Shown here piece after piece: positions 435 to 14,204 of a DNA stretch of 14,260 nt. Both the position numbers and the translations under genes were made by a program. Position 1 is the stretch's first letter, and each line of letters opens with the position of its first letter. Location of the stretch: contig JAILZY010000084.1 of NCBI GenBank assembly GCA_023512255.1, forward strand, positions 1-14,260, read 5' to 3'. The notes beneath the pieces are model-generated. The model did not search any database. It was not told the DNA's origin and worked only from the letters and a program-made list of their open reading frames with translations. The stretch comes from a bacterium. Its GTDB lineage: Bacteria; SZUA-182; DTGQ01.

Positions 435-3400
435 ATGAGTACGTGTAAGTCTAATAAATTAGTACGTTTTTCCCTGAGAGCAGCAATGCGCAGGTCAGCC
501 TGGATTTGTTTAATAGCTCTTTTGATCCTCATGGGACGTGGCCTCACTCAAGTTGAGGGTCTGACCAAAAGTGTAGCCCAAGGTGGCATCAGGGGAAAGA
601 TCACCGATCAGAGCAGCCGCTCTCTGGCCAATATTCAGGTTATGGCCATAAAGCAGCCAGAGACAAGTTTCCCGTATGGATATTATGCTTATGGGTATCC
701 TACCCCCTATGACATAGGCCTTCTGCCGCCCTGGATGCCTAAGGAATTAAGCCAAGAATTCAACCATGCTTCCAATCCCTATCTTTATCCGTATAGACCG
801 TATGGCTCCTATGGTCCGTATGTCTCTAGCAGCGATTTCTTGCCCCCTGAGGTTTACCAAACCCTGAGCGCAGCAGATGGAAGCTTTTCCCTCACCGGCC
901 TGCCGGAAGGAAGGTATAGGCTTTGGGCCTATGATTCTGATAGCTGCAAATATGCGCCTTCGATCTTCGGCCTTGATGCCTCGCAGGCAATAGCTGGGCT
1001 ATATTATTATCCATCGAGCAACGCTGGTATCCTGGTTAAGGTTAAGAGTGGGCAGACTACCGAGCCGATCAATCTGTCCATGTCTTTGGCCGGAAAGCTG
1101 TCCGGCAAGGTAGTTGATGCAGCTACAGGTTCGCCGATCAGCAGCGCCCGCATCCAGGCGATGGGTCCATATTGTTATCCTCCCTTCTGGACCCTTTCTG
1201 ACTCTAGTGGGAAATTCACCTTTTCTGCTCTGCCAGAGGGAGAATACAGGCTGAGCGCGATGGCTGAAGGATACATTGCCGGATATTCCGGTTATGGGCA
1301 GTATGGGCTGGAGGATGTATATCAGGTCCTGCCTGGGCAGGAAATATCTGGTTGCACTTTGAGCTTGAAACTTGGCGGCGCAGTCTCTGGCAGGATCACC
1401 AGCCAAGTTGATGGGAAACCGATTGCCGGGGCTGAGGTTATCTGCTTTATGACCGCTGATCAGCCAGGTTATGTGGTCTCTAGTCCGGTTCTCAGCCAGG
1501 CTGATGGCACCTACCGAATTAGCGGCCTTGAGCCTGGCAGCTATGTCCCCCTGGTTCAATATGCTCCTGGTTTTCAGGGTGCGTATTGTCCGAATACGCA
1601 GGATAGAGAGCAGGCCAGGCAAATCTTAGTAGAAGCGGGAGTCGAGACCGGCTCGGCTGATATCCAGCTTGCTCCAATAAAAGCCAAAGGGATTATCCGG
1701 GGGCGGATCATTGATAAGGCTAGCGGCCTTCCGGTGGCTGGGATCCAGGTCAGTCTTACAAGATTAGATTATGAACCGTATATTGGCCCACTTCTACCCA
1801 CAGAGCCAGGAAAGGTAATTATCATGAGAAATCGGGCTGAGGCAGTCGCAGGTTCTGCCCCGGCTGCGGGCACGGCCTCCTCGCCTACCGTCATAACTTC
1901 CTCGCCTAATGCATATGATGCTCCGGTTGCGGCCCCGCAAGCCTCTCTGCTCATGACTCCGGCCACATCGGATACGGGCATGGTTATGACCGGATACGTC
2001 TCTTCCAGCAGCCCTGGATTGTCATCTTATTATCTTCCCTATGACCCTTACTACTATAGCCCTGCTGGCGAGCCCTCTCCACTCTTCTATTTGCCGTCTG
2101 TGGCGGCAGCCCGGATTAATCCAGTCCTGACCGATGAGCAGGGAAGGTTTGAATTCGGCGGCCTGGAAAACGGAAAATATGAATTGACCATCTATGATCC
2201 GCAAGGCAACTACCTTGGCAGCCGCTATCCAGAATATCCAGCGATCAACTGGGCTGACTCCTATTTACCTCCAGAGTACCTTGAGCTGTCCGAAAAGAAG
2301 ACCTTAATCGAGGGCATCGAAATCTCTCTGGTCCGTGGAGGATGCCTTGAGGGCAAGGTCCTGACCGGCTCTACTCCCTTGGCTGGAATTTGTGTCAGTG
2401 CCATATCGGTAAATATGGGCTATAAAGGAGGATATTACTATTATTATGGCGGCAGCGGATCGCAGAATGTAACCGATACGGCCGGAGAATTCACTATCCG
2501 CGGCCTGGCTGAGGGAGAGTATATGCTGGTGGCCAGAGATGAGATAGGAAATCGAAATTACTTAGCCACCTTCTGCCAGAGCGCCGGAGAGGATAAGCCT
2601 CAGGTATTTAAAGTAACCTCAGGTAGTACCACCTCTGGCCTAGTAATCTACATGAAGCCGGGAGCCTCGATCAGCGGACGGGTTTTGGACCAGGCTGGAG
2701 CTCCTCTGGCTGGAATCACGGTCAGTGCAAATATTGAGCAATGGCCTGCTCTTGATCCGAACAAGCCTTGGGCTTATTACTCCTTATCAACCAGCGCAAG
2801 CGCTATGACTGCCAAGGATGGCACCTACACCCTGGTCGGCTTATCTGAAGGGAGCTATGTGCTGAGGACCTGGGATAAGGATCAAATCTATCTTGAGGGC
2901 TGTCAATCTGGCCTGACTGTGTCTGCTACGGATAGCCTATTTGCACCTGATATGGTCTTGACCAAGAGCTCGATTCTTTCCGGTAAGGTAACCTCCTCAA
3001 CCGATGGCCAGCCTTTGGCTAATATCTTGATTTTGGCAACCAGACAATACCTTGCCGATTATTCTTTGAGCGGAAACAAAGGCGAGGCACCTGCTTACGA
3101 TGAAGCCCCTTACACCTACTCTGACTACTGCGGCGCTTCTCAGATCACCTATCAAGCCCAAGCCTACACCGGCAAGGACGGCACTTATCGAATATGCGGC
3201 CTTGCGGCTGGAAGCTACCAGCTTGAAGCCCAAGATCACCAGAGGGAATATCTACCAGTCCAATACGGCTTAGGAGCTTCCCCTGGGTTGGTATCTGTCA
3301 CTTTAGGCGAGGAGAAAAGCGGCCTTGACTTTTCCCTTGTTCGGGGCGGAATGATTCGAGGCACAGTTCGGGATGCGGTTAGTGGTGAGCCAGTTTCTGG

Positions 3401-6299
3401 AGTAACAATTATGGCCCAGATGGTGTCCCAGTTAGGGTATTCCGGCAGCAGCCAGGCAAGTGGCGGTGGATATACTACCAGCGGCAGCAGTGGATATGTC
3501 TCTTATTACGGTTTAGCCTATTCTGTCCCGCCAGTGGAGGTAAGCTATGGATATGCCGCTGTTCCACCAGAAGCAGGAGCAGGGGCGCTTATGTTGAAAG
3601 GAGAGCAACCTATTTCAGATGCTAGCCGGGGATCTCTCTATATCAAGATGATTCGGGGCCAAATAGGCCAAGAGGTTGAGATTCCGATTATCCTCAGCAC
3701 AGGCTCGAGCGAGGTTTTCTCCCTTGGCTTTGAAGTAGTCTATGATCCAGGTGCTCTGGAATACCTTGGCTTTGAAAAGGGGACTTTAGCCTCTTCCTTG
3801 AGCATGTTCGATGCCTCCCTGATTGAGCCTGGAAGAATTAGAGTCGGCGGATACTCTTTCGTTGCCTCCATTCCAAGCGGAGCAGCCGATGAGCTGATCA
3901 TTTTGAAATTCAAGGTCGATGGTGGGCTGTTGAATCAATGTTATCCCTTGGAGCTAGAAAATCTCATGGACGATCTGGCTGGCTTTGCCGCTAATTCTGG
4001 ATTTTTCTGCACCGGCACTGCTGAGCCTGCTGGAACTTATGCCGGCCCCTCCCCTACCTCGATGCCTGCTGAGCCAGCTTCTGGCTTGACAGTTGAACCC
4101 ATGATATCTGCTCTGCCTATGGTCATGCCTGTATCCACACTAGTTGCTCCTGTGGAGCCGCCTCCTGTGCCGCCAAGCGGTATCACCCCACCAAGCGGCG
4201 GGCTAACTAACTATGGACAGTATCCTGCCCCAGAGATGATCACCGGGGGGATTTACGCCTCGACTCCCACTGACAGTCAAGGGAGGTATATCTTGATAGG
4301 GCTGCCGCCGGGAAAATACCTGCTGTTTGTTTCACCGGCTGAGAAAAACTACCTGGTTCAGTATTATGGAGGTACTGACGAAAATGAAGCAGCGCCGATA
4401 GAGATCGCGGCCGAGCAGGTGATCGAGAATATCAATTTCAACCTGACCGCAGGCATAATTCTCAAGGGCACAGTCAAAGACGCAGCATCCGGCAAGCCTA
4501 TCACTACCGGATGTTCGGTCAGCCTGGCCACTGAGCAGGGATCATATCTTAAGACCACTTACACCAACTTAGCCGGAGAATACCAATTCAGCGGGCTTCG
4601 TCCAGGAAGCTACCTAGTTACGGCCTCAGGCTGTCAGGATTACCACGATGGCTCATACCGCTTGCCAGGGACCGATCCGAAGGCAGCAAGCCCGATCAGT
4701 GTCTCTGCCCCAGGTCCGATAAAGGGGATCGATATCCTTCTCCAGCCTAAAGCCTCAATCAGCGGTCGGGTAGTTGATGAGTTCGATAAGAAGCCACTTC
4801 CCAAAATATTGATTGCAGCCATTCCAAAATCGCTCTCTTCGCCTTTCTATAGCAGCGTTTATTCTTCAGATGTTTATCCTTATCCCTATTATGGATCTCA
4901 AGCCATAACCGATGCTGATGGCCGCTACACGATCAAGGGGCTGGAAGAGGGGGATTATCTGATCCTGGCTCGCGATCCTGTCCATATCTACGGTCAGGAG
5001 TATTACCAAAATGTCCCTGTTAGCCAGCCAAACAAGGCTGCTGTCATCCATGTAAGCCGCTCAGAAGCCAAAGAGGGAATCGACCTTGAGCTTCAGGTTG
5101 GGGAAACCTATAGCGGCCAGGGAAGCAGCAGCAGTCAGGCTCAGCCAGCCACGACTAGCCAAAATTATGGGTATTCTTCAGGTTACCTAGCCATTACCGG
5201 AAGCTCCAACCTTTATGGCTCCAGCACTTTCTTAGGAGGGGCTGGCTATGGCGCTATTGATCCTAGTCGGCAGGCACAATGGGGTGAGCTTGTAACAGGT
5301 CAAAATCCGGCTCAACCTTCACCTTCCTCTCAACAGCAGGTACCAGCCAATATTCAGCCTCCACAAATCATCTCATCAAACTCTGTGGATAAGATCAAGG
5401 CTGGCCGCACCTTCAAATATCAGCTCAAGGTCGATAGCCAGGCAGCTAATAACGACCTGCTTACCTACAGCCTGACGCTTGGCCCTGAAGGGATGGAAAT
5501 TGATCCTAACACCGGCCTGGTTCAATGGAAACCATCCAATCAAGATGCCGGCTCACACATCGTTCAGATTTTGGTTGATAATGGCTATGGGCAGATAGCT
5601 TCCCAGGCATTTCGTTTGCGGGTTGAGGAAGATACTACGCCGCCGCCTGAGGTTACTAACCTGACCGCAGTCAAAGGGGATGGAAAAGTCATCCTCTCCT
5701 GGACCCCGCCTGTGGACCGAGATGAAGACCTGGCGGATCAAATCCTCTATATTGGGGAAGGAAAAGAGTATGGTGCAGGAATAAGCCTTGGGAAAAACAC
5801 CAGAGGGTATACCGTAGAGAACCTAAAAAATGGCCAGTCGTATACCTTCAAAATCGTAGCTGTGGATGTGCTGGGGAATGCTAGCCGGGAAGCGACCACA
5901 TCTGCAACTCCAGCCAAAGAGCAGACCGCGGCAGCTGGCGGAGGCGGCACTGCCTTGTGGCCGAGCTGGTATTCAGTATTTCCGTCAACAAACCCATTCC
6001 TGGGAAATACTACTCTGGGAGGCCTGTGGGGAAATAGCTGGCTATCCTCCCTGAACGCTCCTTCAATCTGGTCAGCCTCTTCGCTATGGTCTGGCAGTCT
6101 ATTCAACAACGCCTGGTGGGGCAACAACACCTGGAACACCTGGTGGGGCAACAACACCTGGGGAATGACCTCTTCCCTCTGGACATCTCCATCCTGGTCA
6201 TCATTGCTTTGGCCTGGCAGCGCATCTGTTCTGGGAGGGCTAGGGGATTCTTGGTGGAATTATCCCCAAAATTCGTGGAGCTGGAAATTGAATTGGTGA
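435..6299 (+). CDS. Giant secreted multidomain surface protein: ~10 carboxypeptidase-regulatory-like repeats, cohesin, Ig, Fn3, Trp-rich tail
   Basis: This 1954-aa protein has an Arg-rich N-terminus and a hydrophobic segment at about 22-34, consistent with a Sec signal peptide. About ten CarboxypepD_reg/CnaB-like repeats follow (starts near 51, 221, 316, 419, 636, 744, 846, 972, 1341, 1440). Each has a G-x-(V/I)-x-(D)-x-x-x-G-x-P-(L/I)-x-x strand pair and ends in a D-G-x-(Y/F)-x-(I/L)-x-G-L-x-x-G-x-Y motif. Loops between the two halves are rich in Tyr, Pro and Gly. Residues about 1064-1195 look like a cohesin domain (VEIPI, FEVVYDPGALEYLG and LILKFKV strands), inserted within repeat eight. 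A Ser/Gln-rich linker (1555-1640), a putative-Ig domain (1641-1732) and a fibronectin III domain (1735-1825) come next. The last 114 residues hold 20 Trp. No catalytic motif is visible, so a structural, adhesive or scaffold role is inferred. Transcription stands alone, convergent with the permease gene. Confidence 0.9.
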   Translation: MSTCKSNKLVRFSLRAAMRRSAWICLIALLILMGRGLTQVEGLTKSVAQGGIRGKITDQSSRSLANIQVMAIKQPETSFPYGYYAYGYPTPYDIGLLPPWMPKELSQEFNHASNPYLYPYRPYGSYGPYVSSSDFLPPEVYQTLSAADGSFSLTGLPEGRYRLWAYDSDSCKYAPSIFGLDASQAIAGLYYYPSSNAGILVKVKSGQTTEPINLSMSLAGKLSGKVVDAATGSPISSARIQAMGPYCYPPFWTLSDSSGKFTFSALPEGEYRLSAMAEGYIAGYSGYGQYGLEDVYQVLPGQEISGCTLSLKLGGAVSGRITSQVDGKPIAGAEVICFMTADQPGYVVSSPVLSQADGTYRISGLEPGSYVPLVQYAPGFQGAYCPNTQDREQARQILVEAGVETGSADIQLAPIKAKGIIRGRIIDKASGLPVAGIQVSLTRLDYEPYIGPLLPTEPGKVIIMRNRAEAVAGSAPAAGTASSPTVITSSPNAYDAPVAAPQASLLMTPATSDTGMVMTGYVSSSSPGLSSYYLPYDPYYYSPAGEPSPLFYLPSVAAARINPVLTDEQGRFEFGGLENGKYELTIYDPQGNYLGSRYPEYPAINWADSYLPPEYLELSEKKTLIEGIEISLVRGGCLEGKVLTGSTPLAGICVSAISVNMGYKGGYYYYYGGSGSQNVTDTAGEFTIRGLAEGEYMLVARDEIGNRNYLATFCQSAGEDKPQVFKVTSGSTTSGLVIYMKPGASISGRVLDQAGAPLAGITVSANIEQWPALDPNKPWAYYSLSTSASAMTAKDGTYTLVGLSEGSYVLRTWDKDQIYLEGCQSGLTVSATDSLFAPDMVLTKSSILSGKVTSSTDGQPLANILILATRQYLADYSLSGNKGEAPAYDEAPYTYSDYCGASQITYQAQAYTGKDGTYRICGLAAGSYQLEAQDHQREYLPVQYGLGASPGLVSVTLGEEKSGLDFSLVRGGMIRGTVRDAVSGEPVSGVTIMAQMVSQLGYSGSSQASGGGYTTSGSSGYVSYYGLAYSVPPVEVSYGYAAVPPEAGAGALMLKGEQPISDASRGSLYIKMIRGQIGQEVEIPIILSTGSSEVFSLGFEVVYDPGALEYLGFEKGTLASSLSMFDASLIEPGRIRVGGYSFVASIPSGAADELIILKFKVDGGLLNQCYPLELENLMDDLAGFAANSGFFCTGTAEPAGTYAGPSPTSMPAEPASGLTVEPMISALPMVMPVSTLVAPVEPPPVPPSGITPPSGGLTNYGQYPAPEMITGGIYASTPTDSQGRYILIGLPPGKYLLFVSPAEKNYLVQYYGGTDENEAAPIEIAAEQVIENINFNLTAGIILKGTVKDAASGKPITTGCSVSLATEQGSYLKTTYTNLAGEYQFSGLRPGSYLVTASGCQDYHDGSYRLPGTDPKAASPISVSAPGPIKGIDILLQPKASISGRVVDEFDKKPLPKILIAAIPKSLSSPFYSSVYSSDVYPYPYYGSQAITDADGRYTIKGLEEGDYLILARDPVHIYGQEYYQNVPVSQPNKAAVIHVSRSEAKEGIDLELQVGETYSGQGSSSSQAQPATTSQNYGYSSGYLAITGSSNLYGSSTFLGGAGYGAIDPSRQAQWGELVTGQNPAQPSPSSQQQVPANIQPPQIISSNSVDKIKAGRTFKYQLKVDSQAANNDLLTYSLTLGPEGMEIDPNTGLVQWKPSNQDAGSHIVQILVDNGYGQIASQAFRLRVEEDTTPPPEVTNLTAVKGDGKVILSWTPPVDRDEDLADQILYIGEGKEYGAGISLGKNTRGYTVENLKNGQSYTFKIVAVDVLGNASREATTSATPAKEQTAAAGGGGTALWPSWYSVFPSTNPFLGNTTLGGLWGNSWLSSLNAPSIWSASSLWSGSLFNNAWWGNNTWNTWWGNNTWGMTSSLWTSPSWSSLLWPGSASVLGGLGDSWWNYPQNSWSWKLNW
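6112..6161 (+). repeat. 27-bp-period tandem repeat in the Trp-rich tail
   Basis: An identical 23-bp block occurs at 6112-6134 and 6139-6161, a period of 27 bp (9 codons). It encodes the heptapeptide WWGNNTW twice, at residues 1894-1900 and 1903-1909. This suggests recent tandem duplication within the coding sequence. Confidence 0.9.
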
Positions 6300-6306
6300 T
6301 GGGGCA

Positions 6307-6427
6307 TTATTATTAAGAGGTTTAAGGGGGGAAACCTTTTTAAGGGGGAAAAATCTTATTTAAGGGGAAAACCCTTTTGAAAAAGGGTTTTCCCCTTAAA
6401 ACCCCTTTCCTAAAACTTTAATAATAA
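6307..6427. repeat. Intergenic inverted-repeat element filling the gap between convergent genes
   Basis: Perfect 10-bp terminal inverted repeats, ttattattaa (6307-6316) and ttaataataa (6418-6427), bound the element. Three degenerate direct copies of a TTTAAGGGGG-AAA-CCTTTT unit of roughly 20 bp start near 6321, 6340 and 6359. Their complement follows on the right. The design resembles a MITE or REP-like element but encodes nothing. Whether it recurs in the genome cannot be seen from this window. Confidence 0.6.
6359..6400. terminator. Probable bidirectional terminator with a perfect 20-bp stem
   Basis: Positions 6359-6378 pair perfectly with 6381-6400 around a 2-nt loop (ga). The stem is built of TTTAAGGGG, AAAA and CCCTTTT blocks. 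It sits between the stop of the giant protein gene (6299) and the stop of the permease gene (6430), so it could terminate both. There is no long uninterrupted T-tract directly after the stem on either strand, so termination is inferred from position and stem strength. Confidence 0.6.
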
Positions 6428-6429
6428 CC

Positions 6430-7866
6430 TTATTCTACACTCAATACTTCTAACGCTGCCGATGGATCTTCTGCATCTTCCCTTTTCGCACTCTTTCTGA
6501 AATAAAGATAAACAAGATAGCCTAATCCAATAGTTCCCAAACCATACAAAGAAACAACAAGTCTGCTTCTTATCGAATAATATATAATCCAAAGATTACC
6601 CAAAATAAAAAAAATCGCACTAAAGGGATAGCCAAAGGTTTTATATTCTCTTTTTACCTCAGGATACTTTATCCTAAGAATCATAAGACCCACCACAGTC
6701 ATCATGGCAAACAGAGAAAGGGTAAAGCCAATATAAATAAGCAGCGTATCAAAGGCTGAGGTAAGTACCATAAAGATAGCAATAGATGCCTGAAGAAAAA
6801 GAGATCGAGATGGTGTTTTATATATCGGATTAACCATAGCAAACTGCTTGAAAAAAATCCCATCCTTGGCCATAGCGTAATAAACCCTGGGGCCAGCTAC
6901 AATCATGGCACTTGTGGCTGAGAGAATGCCTATGGAAATCGCCACGGCAAGATAGGGGCTAATATGATGGCCAAATAAGGCGGCTGCAGCTCGCTCTCCA
7001 ACTTCTAGCACCCCACTCATTTCGGTAATTGGCAAAGCATAGATAAAAACGGCATTTAGGAGAAGATAGAGACAAATAACCAAAAATGTCCCACTAAATA
7101 GGGCCAGGGGAATATTGCGGGCAGGATTTTTGATTTCACCACCAAGATAAACCGCTGCATTCCAGCCACTATAGGCAAAGGAAATAAATATTAGAGAAAC
7201 AGCAAATTTATCTGAAAATATGGTTCCTAAATTCAACTGAGTGAGAAAATTTTCTCCTGCGCCCCGGCCAAACCAAAAACCAGCCATGACTAATAGGATT
7301 ATAAAGGCGATTTTGAAAATGGTTAATCCATTTTGAACCTTGCTGCCCAAAAATAAACCCCAAGAGTGAATTAGAGAAAAAAAGACAATAATAGCTACAG
7401 CCAGCAAGGTATGAGGAGAAATCGTAACTAGGTTATTCCCTAGGAGGGAAATGACTACACTCCCTCCAGTGGTGATTGGACAAGCTTTAAAAAAATAGGT
7501 AGCAAAGGCTACAGCCGAAGCGGCAATGGGAGCAGAAAATCCTACAATTAACGATATCCAGCCAGAGAGAAAGGCCATTGCCTGACCAAAGCTCTCCCGC
7601 AGGAACACGTATTCTCCCCCTGAGTGAGGAAACATGGCTCCCAATTCTCCATAACACAGGGCGCCGCAGAGGGCAAAAATCCCCCCCAACAGCCAGCAAA
7701 GGAGCATAGCCCCAGGATCACCCAATTCCTTGATGATAAATCCTGAGGTGGTATATATACCAGTGCCGATCATATTGGCCACAACTAAAATAAATGCCGA
7801 AAATAGGGTAAGTTGTCTCTCTAGGTGAGCAGTGCTTTTTTCTCCCTTTATTTTTCCTTTATTCAT
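6430..7866 (-). CDS. APC-superfamily amino acid permease
   Basis: This is a 478-aa multi-spanning inner-membrane transporter with about 12 predicted helices. Family signatures visible are the glycine-rich substrate loop GTGIYTTSG at 34-42 in TM1, a G-E-L-G-A-M-F-P-x-S-G-G-E-Y segment after TM2, and Y-S-G-W-N-A in the middle of the chain. Together these are typical of LAT/YfnA-like amino-acid transporters that move amino acids by proton symport or exchange. The substrate cannot be told. The start chosen is ATG at 7866, preceded by GAGAAGGA with about 9 nt spacing. A longer in-frame reading back to a TTG at 8067 would translate through a GC-rich hairpin and is rejected. It lies 201 nt after the DUF4198 gene, so membership of the metal operon is uncertain. 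Confidence 0.88.
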   Translation of the reverse strand: MNKGKIKGEKSTAHLERQLTLFSAFILVVANMIGTGIYTTSGFIIKELGDPGAMLLCWLLGGIFALCGALCYGELGAMFPHSGGEYVFLRESFGQAMAFLSGWISLIVGFSAPIAASAVAFATYFFKACPITTGGSVVISLLGNNLVTISPHTLLAVAIIVFFSLIHSWGLFLGSKVQNGLTIFKIAFIILLVMAGFWFGRGAGENFLTQLNLGTIFSDKFAVSLIFISFAYSGWNAAVYLGGEIKNPARNIPLALFSGTFLVICLYLLLNAVFIYALPITEMSGVLEVGERAAAALFGHHISPYLAVAISIGILSATSAMIVAGPRVYYAMAKDGIFFKQFAMVNPIYKTPSRSLFLQASIAIFMVLTSAFDTLLIYIGFTLSLFAMMTVVGLMILRIKYPEVKREYKTFGYPFSAIFFILGNLWIIYYSIRSRLVVSLYGLGTIGLGYLVYLYFRKSAKREDAEDPSAALEVLSVE

Positions 7867-8024
7867 GTTTTTGATTCCTTCTCGTTTAGGATCCGATACT
7901 CTCTCTCTGCCCAAGCGAATACCCTCAACCCAAAGTCCGCTTCCTTTGGTGCCTATTGAGCCGCAGAGAGGTGGAGCAGGCAGATGCCAAATTTCGATTA
8001 CCTCAGCATGAAGGATCCCTCCCC

Positions 8025-8054
8025 AATCGGCGGGATCAGAAGACCCCGCCGATT
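8025..8054 (+). terminator. GC-rich hairpin with T-tract on the plus strand
   Basis: The arm aatcggcggg (8025-8034) pairs perfectly with cccgccgatt (8045-8054) around a 10-nt loop. The T-run follows the stem only on the plus strand (gatttttcc). On the minus strand, where the flanking genes lie, the A-run precedes the stem. It could block antisense transcription, or act as a post-stop mRNA hairpin after the DUF4198 gene. Confidence 0.5.
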
Positions 8055-8067
8055 TTTCCTTCCACAA

Positions 8068-8838
8068 TTATTCAAGGCCAAGAGTCAAGGTTATCCGATA
8101 GGTAGATTTATCGCACTCAGTCTTATCAGCAAAGGGCACCTCATGAGTGGCCGTAATAAGCCAGGGACCCTTAGAAGACAACTTTATCCGCGCCATTCCC
8201 TGAGCATCACTTTTAACCTCCTGTCCCCACTTGCCCTCATGCTGAAGAGCTGTTTCTTTATCAGTAGCGCTGACCTTGGCTCCGCTGAGCGGCTTGCCCT
8301 GATAGATCACTTTCAGCAGCAATTCATCCCCTACTTTCAGCTTGCCGAAATTTTCAGGCAGCGCAATTTCAAGCGGCAGATCGCCGGATTTAGAAGGAGC
8401 GCTAACCTTTGCGCCGACATTGATCAGCGCCTTGGCATTCATCGTAAATTGAAAACAAGAAATAGCGTCCGGCAGGGTTTTTTTGCTCCCCATCTTGCGA
8501 CTAGTGGGAGTATCCGAGACAAAGCCCGACTTCATTTTGATAATTACCTCATACAGACCTTCGGTGTTGGGTGAGAAGGCATATTTAGCCGAAGCCACTT
8601 TTTCAATCGGCAGCTCCTGCCCTTTGGGGGCGCGGATAAAAATCTTCTCAATACTTTCTTCACTCAACTCCTCGGTATGAGGGTATTTATGTCCAAAGCC
8701 AATGTCTACAGTAATCTTCTCTCCTACCCGTGGAGAATAATTGCTGGCACTTAGCCAGAGCATGTGTCCCTGAGCTGATGCTGATACCAAGCCTATTATC
8801 GCCAGAGTCATTAAAAGGGTTATCCAAGTCTTTTTCAT
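8068..8838 (-). CDS. Secreted DUF4198-family protein, probable nickel/cobalt uptake component
   Basis: This 256-aa protein has a clear Sec signal peptide (MKKT, then a hydrophobic core to about residue 18). An A-Q-G cleavage context would leave His25 as the first residue of the mature protein. That gives a possible N-terminal metal ligand, with further His at 50 and 54 (G-F-G-H-K-Y-P-H). The HMLW start, the two beta-sandwich segments and the late G-K-P-L-S-G-A-K-V and A-Q-G-x-A-x-I blocks match DUF4198. Members of that family are often found with nickel or cobalt transporters in Gram-negatives. ATG 8838 follows AAGGAGAAACCTG with good spacing. It is 123 nt behind the methylase-fold gene, and both proteins are predicted to be periplasmic. 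Metal specificity is inferred. Confidence 0.8.
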   Translation of the reverse strand: MKKTWITLLMTLAIIGLVSASAQGHMLWLSASNYSPRVGEKITVDIGFGHKYPHTEELSEESIEKIFIRAPKGQELPIEKVASAKYAFSPNTEGLYEVIIKMKSGFVSDTPTSRKMGSKKTLPDAISCFQFTMNAKALINVGAKVSAPSKSGDLPLEIALPENFGKLKVGDELLLKVIYQGKPLSGAKVSATDKETALQHEGKWGQEVKSDAQGMARIKLSSKGPWLITATHEVPFADKTECDKSTYRITLTLGLE

Positions 8839-8875: not shown

Positions 8876-8961
8876 TTTTATAGCTTCTTATTATGCTGTC
8901 CTCTCGCTAAAAAAGCGTGCAATTTGAGCGCCCCCCTTGTGTCCGCCCCTACAATCAGCTC

Positions 8962-9873
8962 TTATTTATCAGCCGTCTTATAACGGTTGGTTATAAAATC
9001 GCCGACATAGATCAGGTGTTCAAAGGGCAGTTTTTCTCCTTTCGTTTTTTCCAGAATCGTATCTAGCGTGCCCTGGATGATTTTCTCTTTCTCCCGATAG
9101 CCTGCATACAGCACGATAGCAATAGGGGTTTGCGGGGGGTAATGGGTCTTGAGCTTTTTCACTACCTTTTCAAGATCGAGAAACATGGTGAAAAAGACCA
9201 TTGTCGCCTGAGTGGCTGCAAGGTTTTCTATGCTGTCTAGGCCGCTATACTCCTCATTTCCGAATGAGGCGGTGAGAATAACCGAATGCGTTTTCTTACC
9301 TGAGGTAACGCCTTTTTTTAAGGCAGCATTAGCGGCATTAAAGCAGCTAATGCCAGGCACGATTTGCGGATTCAGGTCCTCAAAGGCTTCCATGTACCAC
9401 ATATTAGGCCCATAAATGGTCGGGTCTCCGCTGTCCAACACGGCTACGGTTTTTCCCTCACTGACGGCTTTGCGGATAATAGAGTTTATTTCATTAAATT
9501 CCTTAATCTTTTCTTCATAATTAAACCGCTTGTTCTTCTTTGCCTCTTCCGGGGATTTCCCATAGATGGCGAAAATGCCAAACCCAGGATCGTGAATTTC
9601 CTTCCCCTGAAGGAGAATGGGAAACCTATCCCGCATCTCTTTATCACAGAAAATGATATCCGCGTCCTTGATCACATTGACTGCCCGCAGGGTGATGTTG
9701 TCAGGATCGCCGCTTCCAACACTCACTAGATAAAGCTGCGGTCTTGAGCCTCCGCGAGCAGCAAAAGCATAGTTAGCTGCCCCTGCCAATAGGGCCACAA
9801 AAATCATCAGCATACCTACAATAACTTGAACTTGGCTAAATCTTTTGGTTCTTCTAGCTAATGAGCTCATCAT
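8962..9873 (-). CDS. Tetrapyrrole (corrin/porphyrin) methylase-fold protein with an N-terminal export signal
   Basis: This 303-aa protein has a catalytic fold typical of uroporphyrinogen/precorrin methyltransferases. Seen are the N-terminal loop V-G-S-G-D-P (52-57) preceding I-T-L-R-A, the L-D-S-G-D-P-T-I-Y-G signature (146-155), V-P-G-I-S (172-176) and a late Y-A-G-Y-R-E-K-E-K-I-I-Q-G-T-L segment (256-270). The last most resembles precorrin-4 C11 methylases (CobM/CbiF). The oddity is residues 1-38: R-R-T-K-R, then a long hydrophobic helix ending in A-F-A, a standard signal peptide or N-in/C-out anchor. The domain would therefore sit in the periplasm, where SAM is not expected. ATG 9873 follows AAGGAG with 6 nt spacing; the ATG at 9870 is a less likely alternative. 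It lies between the TonB receptor and DUF4198 genes. A non-catalytic tetrapyrrole-binding role is possible. Confidence 0.85.
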   Translation of the reverse strand: MMSSLARRTKRFSQVQVIVGMLMIFVALLAGAANYAFAARGGSRPQLYLVSVGSGDPDNITLRAVNVIKDADIIFCDKEMRDRFPILLQGKEIHDPGFGIFAIYGKSPEEAKKNKRFNYEEKIKEFNEINSIIRKAVSEGKTVAVLDSGDPTIYGPNMWYMEAFEDLNPQIVPGISCFNAANAALKKGVTSGKKTHSVILTASFGNEEYSGLDSIENLAATQATMVFFTMFLDLEKVVKKLKTHYPPQTPIAIVLYAGYREKEKIIQGTLDTILEKTKGEKLPFEHLIYVGDFITNRYKTADK

Positions 9874-12557: not shown

Positions 12558-12977
12558 TCAATCTCGATTCATCATTTCCTTAATCTTTTGAATAAGCTTA
12601 TCAGTCAAATGGGGCAGAGGCTCATATTGATAGCCTATCAGGGAGATATTCTCCATAGGGAGGGGGAGCAAGAACTTATAGGCCCTGCTATTGGCAATCG
12701 CCTCGGCCATCTTAGGCGTTAGCTCACCCAACATGGAATTAGGGATAATCACTTGAGCCGCTCCAACAATAATATCTACTCGACTGGCAACATAGCTGAT
12801 AGCATTTTCTCCAGAAGCCCCTCGATTAGCCTTGGCTTTCATCATAGCCGACGTAGCTAGAGAATTCGTGCCGAGGGCGATGATTTCCAGAGACTGCAAT
12901 TCCACCTCCTCTCTAATCCGCTTGACGATGTAACTTCCGATACCACCGCCATGACCATCGACCACTGCGATGACCAA
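12558..12977 (-). CDS. DUF3842-family protein with glycine-rich nucleotide-binding-like loop, TTG start
   Basis: This 139-aa soluble protein is recognised as DUF3842, whose function is unknown. It opens with a beta strand and a glycine-rich loop, V-V-D-G-H-G-G-G-I-G (5-14), reminiscent of a Rossmann-like fold. A strand-helix alternation follows, with A-L-G-T-N-S-L-A-T-S-A-M-M and V-D-I-I-V-G-A-A-Q-V-I-I. The start is a TTG at 12977, chosen because AAGGAGG lies 7 nt before it and the glycine loop begins immediately after. It is the first gene of the cluster, directly after the long leader, and is 18 nt upstream of cooT. The pairing suggests a shared nickel-related job, which is inference. Confidence 0.78.
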   Translation of the reverse strand: MVIAVVDGHGGGIGSYIVKRIREEVELQSLEIIALGTNSLATSAMMKAKANRGASGENAISYVASRVDIIVGAAQVIIPNSMLGELTPKMAEAIANSRAYKFLLPLPMENISLIGYQYEPLPHLTDKLIQKIKEMMNRD

Positions 12978-13417
12978 TAAAGTACCTCCTTATGATCGCA
13001 ACCGCAAGTTTTGAGGGTTTGATCAGCCCCCGAATTCTCCAGCCATAAAAGTAAACTCGCATCCTGCAAGGCGCTGCGATTTGTATAGGTTAGTTAAATG
13101 CGCCGGGTCATATTTTCTTGTCTTGCATTAAGCTGGGCCATATTCTTCATTGAATACGGCCCAGGGATATAAAATGATAATGGATCTTCTGCCCCGGCGG
13201 CAGAATCTTAGCCTTTCCCGAAAATAATTCCTGCCCGAAGCCTAGTGAAAAACAAAAAAAGCCATGAAAGCTTTTGCTTCGGATATTCCATCCGAAAAAA
13301 AGCCTTCATGGCTTCCATTATTATTCGATTATTATAACAATAGCCTTCCTTCTCCACCTCCAGTGGTGAAGAAGGTGACAACTCCTGATTTTTTTTCAAA
13401 AATATCTCATTTAGGTG
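12978..13417 (-). ncRNA. Long hairpin-rich leader RNA of the metal-acquisition locus
   Basis: From the promoter at 13424-13452 to the TTG at 12977 there are about 440 nt without a convincing gene. In transcript order the stems are: 13375-13348 (11 bp with one wobble), the long hairpin 13313-13260 followed by a U-tract, 13205-13187 (7-bp stem with 5-nt loop), and 13164-13133 (13-bp stem with one mismatch, 6-nt loop). I do not recognise a cobalamin, NiCo (czcD), fluoride, TPP or Moco aptamer. The layout of promoter, about 100 nt, then a terminator hairpin fits either an attenuated leader or a small RNA of about 165 nt. Confidence 0.5.
13247..13313 (-). terminator. Intrinsic terminator/attenuator hairpin in the leader
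   Basis: On the minus strand the arm complementary to 13290-13313 pairs with that complementary to 13260-13284 around a 5-nt loop, with only a few mismatches over about 24 positions. The stem is followed by a run read as TTTTTTTGTTTTT. There is no upstream minus-strand gene for it to end, so it would act on the leader transcript. The 5' arm also contains its own small hairpin (AAGCC-ATGAA-GGCTT), which is mutually exclusive with the long stem. Confidence 0.6.
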
Positions 13418-13423
13418 ATTAAA

Positions 13424-13452
13424 TTAATAACAGTATTCGCTGAAGTTGTCAA
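13424..13452 (-). promoter_or_regulatory. Sigma70-type promoter of the metal-acquisition locus
   Basis: On the minus strand, TTGACA (13447-13452) is separated by exactly 17 nt from TATTAA (13424-13429). A perfect -35 and optimal spacing make this the best promoter candidate in the window. Transcription would start near 13417. Confidence 0.7.
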
Positions 13453-13494
13453 GTGAGTTGTTTCACTTTTCCCAAAATAAATCGGAAACTAATC

Positions 13495-13523
13495 TTGACT
13501 TCCCCTTTATGTTAATATACATT
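13495..13523 (+). promoter_or_regulatory. Divergent promoter of the truncated glycosyltransferase gene
   Basis: TTGACT (13495-13500) is followed after 17 nt by TACATT (13518-13523), five and four matches to the sigma70 consensus. It lies about 80 nt before the ATG at 13605 and is divergent from the metal-locus promoter. Confidence 0.5.
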
Positions 13524-13604
13524 TAGACAAAAAACTATTATAAAAATGGTATCTTATAGAGTCTGGGTTTTCAATGCCTTCAAAGCTAGAGTCTAATCTC
13601 AACT

Positions 13605-14204
13605 ATGTCAAAAAAACAAAGAACAAAAAGTGAAGCCCTATCTAAAGGTACGCTCAAGAGATGGCCTATAAATGAATCTAATGTGGGTAAATTCATTGGT
13701 AACAAAACAGTCTTTGGGTTAGTTATTGTTGGAGCATTGGTAGGAATATTAGCCACGATCTCCATATTGTACCCAACCAAAACACTGGACTACCGGCAGA
13801 ACTTATATCCTCCATATTCCGAATCTCAAAAGCCAATAGTTTACCTCTCCCTGGCTTTAGTCCTTATCTTAAGCGGCTGTGCGCTCTATATTTCGGAAAT
13901 ATTTAACCGCTTCCAGGTTGTGGTCGAATACGTAGATAAACACAAAGGCATTGCTCTATCGGTTATTCTCATTATCTATTTTGTCTTCTGGCATCGGCTT
14001 TTTACGGCCCATTTTTGTCGAGATGACTATATGCATCTGGCCGCAGCCAGTGAGCGGATAAAAACGATCGCCGACTGGGGTAAAGCTTTCTTTCGACTTG
14101 ATGCCGTTGACCGCAACTTTCGGCCTTTATCTACCGATATCTATTTATCGGCTTGCCGAATGTTGTTTGGATACAGAGAATGGGCAGATGTTCCCCATGT
14201 TTAA
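13605..14204 (+). CDS. N-terminal fragment of a GT-C-type membrane glycosyltransferase, probably truncated
   Basis: This 199-aa protein has three hydrophobic helices at about 36-55, 77-97 and 114-132. They are followed by R-D-D-Y-M-H-L (139-145) and N-F-R-P-L-S (171-176). An acidic DD/DDY motif in the first outside loop and a later F-R-P-L motif are typical of polytopic GT-C glycosyltransferases of the O-mannosyltransferase/TMTC-like group, which use lipid-linked sugars. Those proteins normally have about 9-12 helices and 500 or more residues. Here the frame stops (VPHV, taa) just after the FRPL region, so most of the enzyme is missing. No Shine-Dalgarno is visible before ATG 13605. The fragment could reflect a rearrangement, a frameshift, or assembly error near 14170-14200. 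It is not obviously related to the metal locus. Confidence 0.55.
   Translation: MSKKQRTKSEALSKGTLKRWPINESNVGKFIGNKTVFGLVIVGALVGILATISILYPTKTLDYRQNLYPPYSESQKPIVYLSLALVLILSGCALYISEIFNRFQVVVEYVDKHKGIALSVILIIYFVFWHRLFTAHFCRDDYMHLAAASERIKTIADWGKAFFRLDAVDRNFRPLSTDIYLSACRMLFGYREWADVPHV

Follow-up and report, generated by a model that had tools for sequence, protein, structure and literature searches.

A predicted exported protein with a corrin-methylase fold as a putative binding partner of TonB-dependent receptors in cobalt or nickel uptake

The tetrapyrrole methylases known to date are SAM-dependent enzymes of the cytoplasm. Within the window analysed here (the whole stretch of 14,260 nucleotides from contig JAILZY010000084.1), one gene encodes a methylase domain of this type directly behind an N-terminus resembling a signal peptide, and its neighbours encode a TonB-dependent receptor and a DUF4198 protein. 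Is the export signal genuine, and what might a methylase fold do outside the cytoplasm? The co-occurrence of a signal-like N-terminus and a complete tetrapyrrole-methylase domain was confirmed, and the features discussed below are listed in Table 1.

Table 1. Positions of the features of the window and of two riboswitch-associated sister operons (L048, L086); TPM, tetrapyrrole-methylase-fold gene
Feature	Positions	Strand	Basis or remark
Window			
Predicted exported tetrapyrrole-methylase-fold protein, 303 aa	8962..9873	−	
Signal-peptide-like N-terminus, residues 1–38, ...NYAFA|A	9760..9873	−	Charge, hydrophobicity and fast evolution
TP_methylase domain, residues 47–273	9055..9735	−	Pfam PF00590, 3.9e-44; mature model
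First glycine loop VGSGDP, residues 52–57, Ser54 replacing Pro	9703..9720	−	
LDSGDPTIYG, residues 146–155, cofactor-loop motif kept	9409..9438	−	
Trp159, position of the substrate-site Glu (NirE E114)	9397..9399	−	Residue comparison
TonB-dependent receptor, 717 aa	9993..12146	−	Same strand, 119 bp upstream of the methylase-fold gene
DUF4198 protein, 256 aa	8068..8838	−	Same strand, 123 bp downstream of the methylase-fold gene
His25 of the DUF4198 protein (AQG|HMLW), predicted residue 1 after signal cleavage	8764..8766	−	Sequence
APC-family amino-acid permease	6430..7866	−	Pfam PF13520, 3.3e-58
DUF3842 protein, upstream of the receptor	12558..12977	−	Near the locus in 4 cases
Sister operon L048			
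Riboswitch	4349–4536		
Receptor	5024–7165		
TPM	7200–8819		
DUF4198	8883–9728		
Sister operon L086			
Riboswitch	12369–12179		
Receptor	to 9886		
TPM	9809–8157		

The reading frame is intact, starting with ATG and free of internal stops. TP_methylase (PF00590) was the sole Pfam family matched in the 303-aa product, with a score of 151.6 bits against a gathering score of 27.8 and coverage of model positions 2–211 of 212. By sequence, the closest solved relatives were CobM (4e16; 7e-23) and CbiF (1cbf; 7e-17), and the CobM/CbiF equivalog TIGR01465 was matched with 132.6 bits, below its curated cut-off of 259.65. The original prediction had described the methylase signatures as intact. VGSGDP, LDSGDPTIYG and VPGIS (residues 172–176) are indeed all present, but the first loop reads GSGD rather than the usual GPGD, and the proline replaced by serine was invariant in 10 cytosolic controls.

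The N-terminus consists of MMSSLARRTKRFSQVQ (+4), followed by VIVGMLMIFVALLAGAA and then NYAFA|A with a possible cleavage site AFA|A; its n-region thus carries a charge of +4, and the Kyte–Doolittle (KD) hydrophobicity of its core reaches 3.1 over 12 aa. A hydrophobic N-terminal core (KD ≥ 1.8 over 12 residues) was retained in 39 of the 40 aligned relatives, which represent at least four phyla judging by record titles; no such core was seen among 23 cytosolic superfamily proteins drawn from these and additional genomes. The n-region was positive in 37 of the 40; in 34 it exceeded the c-region in positive charge. An AxA-like site, as called by the simple rules used for cleavage throughout the family, was found in 37. 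Comparison with the sister genome G001 gave a dN of 0.60 and a dS of 0.87 for the first 42 residues, against a dN of 0.061 and a saturated dS of about 1.7 for the rest of the protein. The sequence of the segment is therefore free while its property is kept, as in signal peptides. All six copies in the genome family of the window (G000 to G003) had such an N-terminus, and in two of these it contains a cysteine of the lipoprotein type (FSAIFGCS, FSAISGCS). Across the family, lipoboxes were present in L028, in L031 and in two proteins of L045. Sec export, recognised by the positive n-region, hydrophobic core and AxA site or lipobox found here, is the natural reading, and cleavage would probably follow; the export signal sets the protein apart from the signal-less cytoplasmic CobM/CbiF type. 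Tat export was rejected because the twin-arginine motif was not conserved (RR in 5/40 aligned proteins, including that of the window). The signal peptide proposed originally is thus borne out by the relatives, the cytosolic members and the dN contrast. Homologues lacking the N-terminus, the case that would speak against it, were represented by one only, L060, whose long branch is nested in the exported group.

Modelled with AlphaFold, the mature domain (pLDDT 88.3, pTM 0.84) matched CobM 4e16 with a Z of 22.5 and an rmsd of 2.4 Å over 224 aa, showing a two-lobed fold with a cleft; Foldseek agreed, and other superfamily members gave lower Z values. Three rows of cytosolic CbiF stood in the alignment behind this model and may have aided the orientation of the lobes. 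The full-length model, signal included, had confident lobes in an odd mutual orientation (rmsd 14 Å).

Pocket positions were mapped through the CobA of the window genome onto the NirE positions of PMC4731766 and compared between 52 exported and 10 cytosolic proteins. In NirE, E114Q lost 84% of activity and R111K lost 94% (PMC4731766). At the E114 position, 9 of the 10 cytosolic controls have Glu, whereas 47 of the 52 exported proteins have Trp; the R111 position was Pro in 44/52, CbiF-type controls having Ala there. These changes make ordinary tetrapyrrole methylation unlikely, and should the ligand be a tetrapyrrole, it would not be bound in the usual way. Part of the cofactor pocket was kept (G149 and A257, each in 51/52; I/L/V at 153). 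The Asp of the GDP motif (D150) was present in 34/52 and replaced by Asn in 18/52, and the first glycine loop was altered in most, the GPGD Asp being Gly in 33/52; the window protein retains both D56 and D150. The old cofactor pocket might still accommodate a nucleotide-like or other ligand.

A genome scan detected 48 loci, mostly in Desulfobacterota; the others came from Planctomycetes, from Aminicenantes and from a single MAG carrying the label Bacteroidales. The phylum of the window comprises only 9 genomes. Among cultured bacteria, domain matches numbered 7 in Desulfonema magnum (G060), 7 in Desulfocarbo indianensis (G061) and 11 in Dethiosulfatarculus sandiegensis (G062), most of them high-scoring. 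The extracytoplasmic methylase fold predicted from a single gene was thus supported and generalises to dozens of loci. When the exported proteins were placed in one tree together with 23 cytosolic members, they fell on one side of a branch with SH-aLRT 73, separate from CbiF and CobA; a single origin of the group is likely, though not certain, on this topology. The signal-less L060 was nested among them with a branch length of 2.58; its gene (L060:5568–6275) adjoins MFS-like and amidohydrolase-like ORFs. The family comprised single-domain and tandem two-domain forms, the latter of about 540–565 aa (L044, L046, L047, L048, L051 and L086). Two O-methyltransferase-fold proteins with signal-like N-termini were observed in an Aminicenantes MAG (L080:10425–11126, plus strand, and a relative at 13138–13803), representing another SAM fold that is apparently exported.

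The window genome holds separate cytosolic superfamily members, which can be read from sequence and position as CobA, CbiL, CbiF, CbiH and CbiE. Given this set, no gap in B12 synthesis is left for the exported protein, and the idea that it supplies a missing pathway step was rejected. Plasmid records contained ordinary methylases only, among the matches listed, and no publication on exported tetrapyrrole methylases was found in the open-access literature.

In the window, the methylase-fold gene shares a same-strand operon with a TonB receptor and a DUF4198 gene, the combination by which TonB-dependent nickel or cobalt uptake is recognised. The best NCBIfam match of the receptor was TonB_dep_CU (259 bits, under the cut-off of 700); it has SPPDAWWW where the selenocysteine (Sec) type has CPUDYYWW, with neither Sec nor Cys in this stretch. 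For the APC permease, the Met codon at position 7866 is the probable start; the ORF as listed opens with TTG at 8067. Whether the DUF3842 gene is linked to the operon is uncertain. Elsewhere in the window (435–6299, plus strand), a 1954-aa protein with a signal-like start contains seven CarboxypepD_reg stretches, cohesin-like, He_PIG and fn3 domains and a C-terminal Trp/Asn-rich stretch.

This arrangement recurred across the family. Within 6 kb, a TonB receptor was found at 40 of 47 loci, DUF4198 at 29/47 and an APC permease at 21/47. The next same-strand upstream gene encoded the receptor in 32/44 cases, with gaps mostly below 150 bp, and the next downstream gene encoded DUF4198 in 21/40. Neither receptor nor DUF4198 matches occurred around the cytosolic members of the window genome. 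The transport role suggested originally by the two neighbours thus extends to dozens of loci. Passages of PMC12537917 describe Ni2+ binding by DUF4198 through its N-terminal His with a Kd of 18 nM. By rule, AxA|H was present in 35/37 of the DUF4198 partners, and 9/10 nucleoside hydrolase-FmdE proteins and 5/8 NikL-like small proteins would likewise begin with His after cleavage, the rest being judged by eye; unlike in these partners, an N-terminal His was not conserved in the methylase-fold protein itself. The exported nucleoside hydrolase-FmdE fusion, found at L030:4360–5841 (minus strand) and nine other loci, has an intact DTDxxxDD motif (AHTYKxSxxxDTDMALDD). Other neighbours at some loci were the cobalt transporters CbiM and CbiQ, FmdE proteins, an ABC transporter with a PF01497 binding protein, ChlI/ChlD-like subunits, an AraC-type regulator, an MFS carrier and an O-methyltransferase.

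Fourteen partner receptors were interrupted by an in-frame TGA followed by a homologous open frame, with two motif types, LPCP-U-DYYWWARCA and CxxU. Read with TGA as Sec, the L055 receptor scored 1104.6 bits to NF049947 (the NCBIfam PCPU type), and tRNA-Sec was above the cut-off in 6/6 genomes tested. Sec TonB receptor types are already known from NCBIfam (NF049944–NF049947) and from passages of PMC12013277 and PMC13188914, which make no mention of a partner gene. The exported methylase-like gene provides a partner for these orphan receptor types. In-frame-TGA receptors of the LPCP-U-DYYWWARCA type adjoin it at L055:5764–7833, L069, L073, L077, L081 and others.

Genes for B12 synthesis, B12 receptors and the transport of cobalt are known targets of B12 riboswitches. 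In two sister operons, L048 and L086, the receptor and an exported two-domain gene directly follow a cobalamin riboswitch (Table 1), an arrangement that favours cobalt or a corrinoid as cargo. Close to the Desulfonema cluster (L083), another one precedes a receptor and an MFS carrier. At L085:1569–4609 (minus strand), ChlI- and ChlD-like chelatase subunits stand behind a cobalamin riboswitch and adjoin an exported methylase-like gene. NikR boxes in the window were not above chance: allowing 3 mismatches gave 7 matches, where 4.5 were expected.

A role in the TonB-dependent uptake of a metal complex is well supported by these findings. The receptor would bring in a cobalt or nickel complex, and the methylase-fold protein might bind it in the interlobe cleft, possibly as a Co- or Ni-tetrapyrrole and possibly as another chelate. 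The complex or its metal could then be handed to DUF4198, which would hold nickel through its N-terminal His, and onward to inner-membrane carriers such as the APC permease, CbiM/CbiQ or a FecCD-type ABC transporter. From the altered substrate site we infer that the protein is most likely no longer a methyltransferase. To the full proposal, namely a Sec-exported CobM/CbiF-fold protein without methyltransferase activity that acts as a binding component in TonB-dependent uptake of cobalt or nickel complexes, we attach an even chance of being right. Against it count the failure to identify a ligand or metal site in the exported protein; the Planctomycete and Aminicenantes copies with no TonB receptor in view (L039, L041, L042 and L080); and the lack, in the window, of a cobalamin or nickel riboswitch, even at a loose threshold, and of a convincing NikR site. 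The retention of several cofactor-pocket positions also counts against binding of this kind, being unexpected if nothing nucleotide-like binds there.

That retention could instead indicate that the exported protein is a periplasmic enzyme whose substrate is a tetrapyrrole or metal chelate, working either without SAM or with a co-exported cofactor, for example by releasing or changing a metal complex. Strong constraint has preserved the fold and some of the cofactor pocket, and enzyme-like exported neighbours occur (the nucleoside hydrolase-FmdE fusion at 10 loci, FmdE, and the ChlI/ChlD-like subunits at L085). However, the catalytic Glu is replaced by Trp in nearly all members, the scarcity of twin-arginine motifs argues against export with a bound cofactor, and SAM is not expected in the periplasm; we thus consider such an enzyme unlikely. 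The same pocket residues would also suit extracytoplasmic binding of SAM, SAH or a related thionucleoside, scavenged with the help of the nucleoside hydrolase, with its intact motif at 10 loci, and of the amino-acid permease. The hydrolase accompanies only part of the family, however, and the TonB receptors, nickel-binding DUF4198, CbiM/CbiQ and cobalamin riboswitches all point to a metal, leaving scavenging distinctly improbable.

If the N-terminus were an uncleaved anchor with the domain facing the cytoplasm, the protein could be an ordinary membrane-tethered SAM enzyme. A long helix (residues 3–39) was predicted with fair confidence in the full-length model, and the c-region carries a charge of +1 or +2 in some members. 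The charge distribution in most relatives nevertheless predicts the N-terminus inside and the domain outside, and the AxA-like sites, the lipoboxes in at least four proteins, the TonB/DUF4198 partnership and the substrate-site change likewise speak against such tethering, which appears very unlikely; the suggestion that the helix serves as an unusual anchor is weakened by the same sites and lipobox variants. A wrong start or a chance hydrophobic stretch ahead of an ordinary CbiF is scarcely credible and was rejected, since a sister gene of 84% identity has the same structure and operon, nearly all relatives keep the segment, and in most of them the start codon is the only one, or the first, ahead of it.

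Returning to the binding role, the exported corrin-methylase-fold family as a whole may, as a tentative generalisation, represent the periplasmic cargo-binding partner of TonB receptors, often of the Sec type, capturing Co/Ni tetrapyrroles or another chelate in anaerobes. In that case an enzyme of the B12 pathway would have given rise to a novel type of periplasmic binding protein. Cobalt and nickel are needed for B12, hydrogenase and CO dehydrogenase. If the proposal is true, the orphan Sec TonB receptors would gain a testable cargo, and it would show how sulfate-reducing and related anaerobes acquire these metals. Automatic annotation likely labels the exported genes as precorrin methyltransferases, so that B12 synthesis genes would be overcounted. 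Our results suggest that an enzyme fold of the B12 pathway has been reused extracytoplasmically for cobalt or nickel compounds.

An exported protein with a tetrapyrrole-enzyme fold has a precedent in the periplasmic cobaltochelatase CbiK(P) of Desulfovibrio, although that protein belongs to a chelatase fold family and the present one has a methylase fold. With the (cobalt-)precorrin-4 C11-methyltransferase CobM/CbiF, the window protein shares the fold, the best solved-structure matches and the GDP and PG motifs; it differs in being exported, in having Trp for the substrate-site Glu, in its equivalog score (132.6 against 259.65 bits) and in lying outside a B12 cluster. Uroporphyrinogen-III methyltransferases (CobA/CysG-C/NirE) have the same superfamily fold (Z about 20), whereas R111 and E114, needed for NirE activity (PMC4731766), are Pro and Trp in the exported protein. 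The neighbours are those of the DUF4198/TonB nickel systems, and the window DUF4198 likewise has a predicted N-terminal His; the passages of PMC12537917 on these systems do not mention a tetrapyrrole-methylase partner. Finally, the Sec TonB receptors (NF049944–NF049947; passages of PMC12013277) correspond to direct operon partners of the exported family, whereas the window receptor, at 259 bits and under the cut-off, is a non-Sec relative of them.
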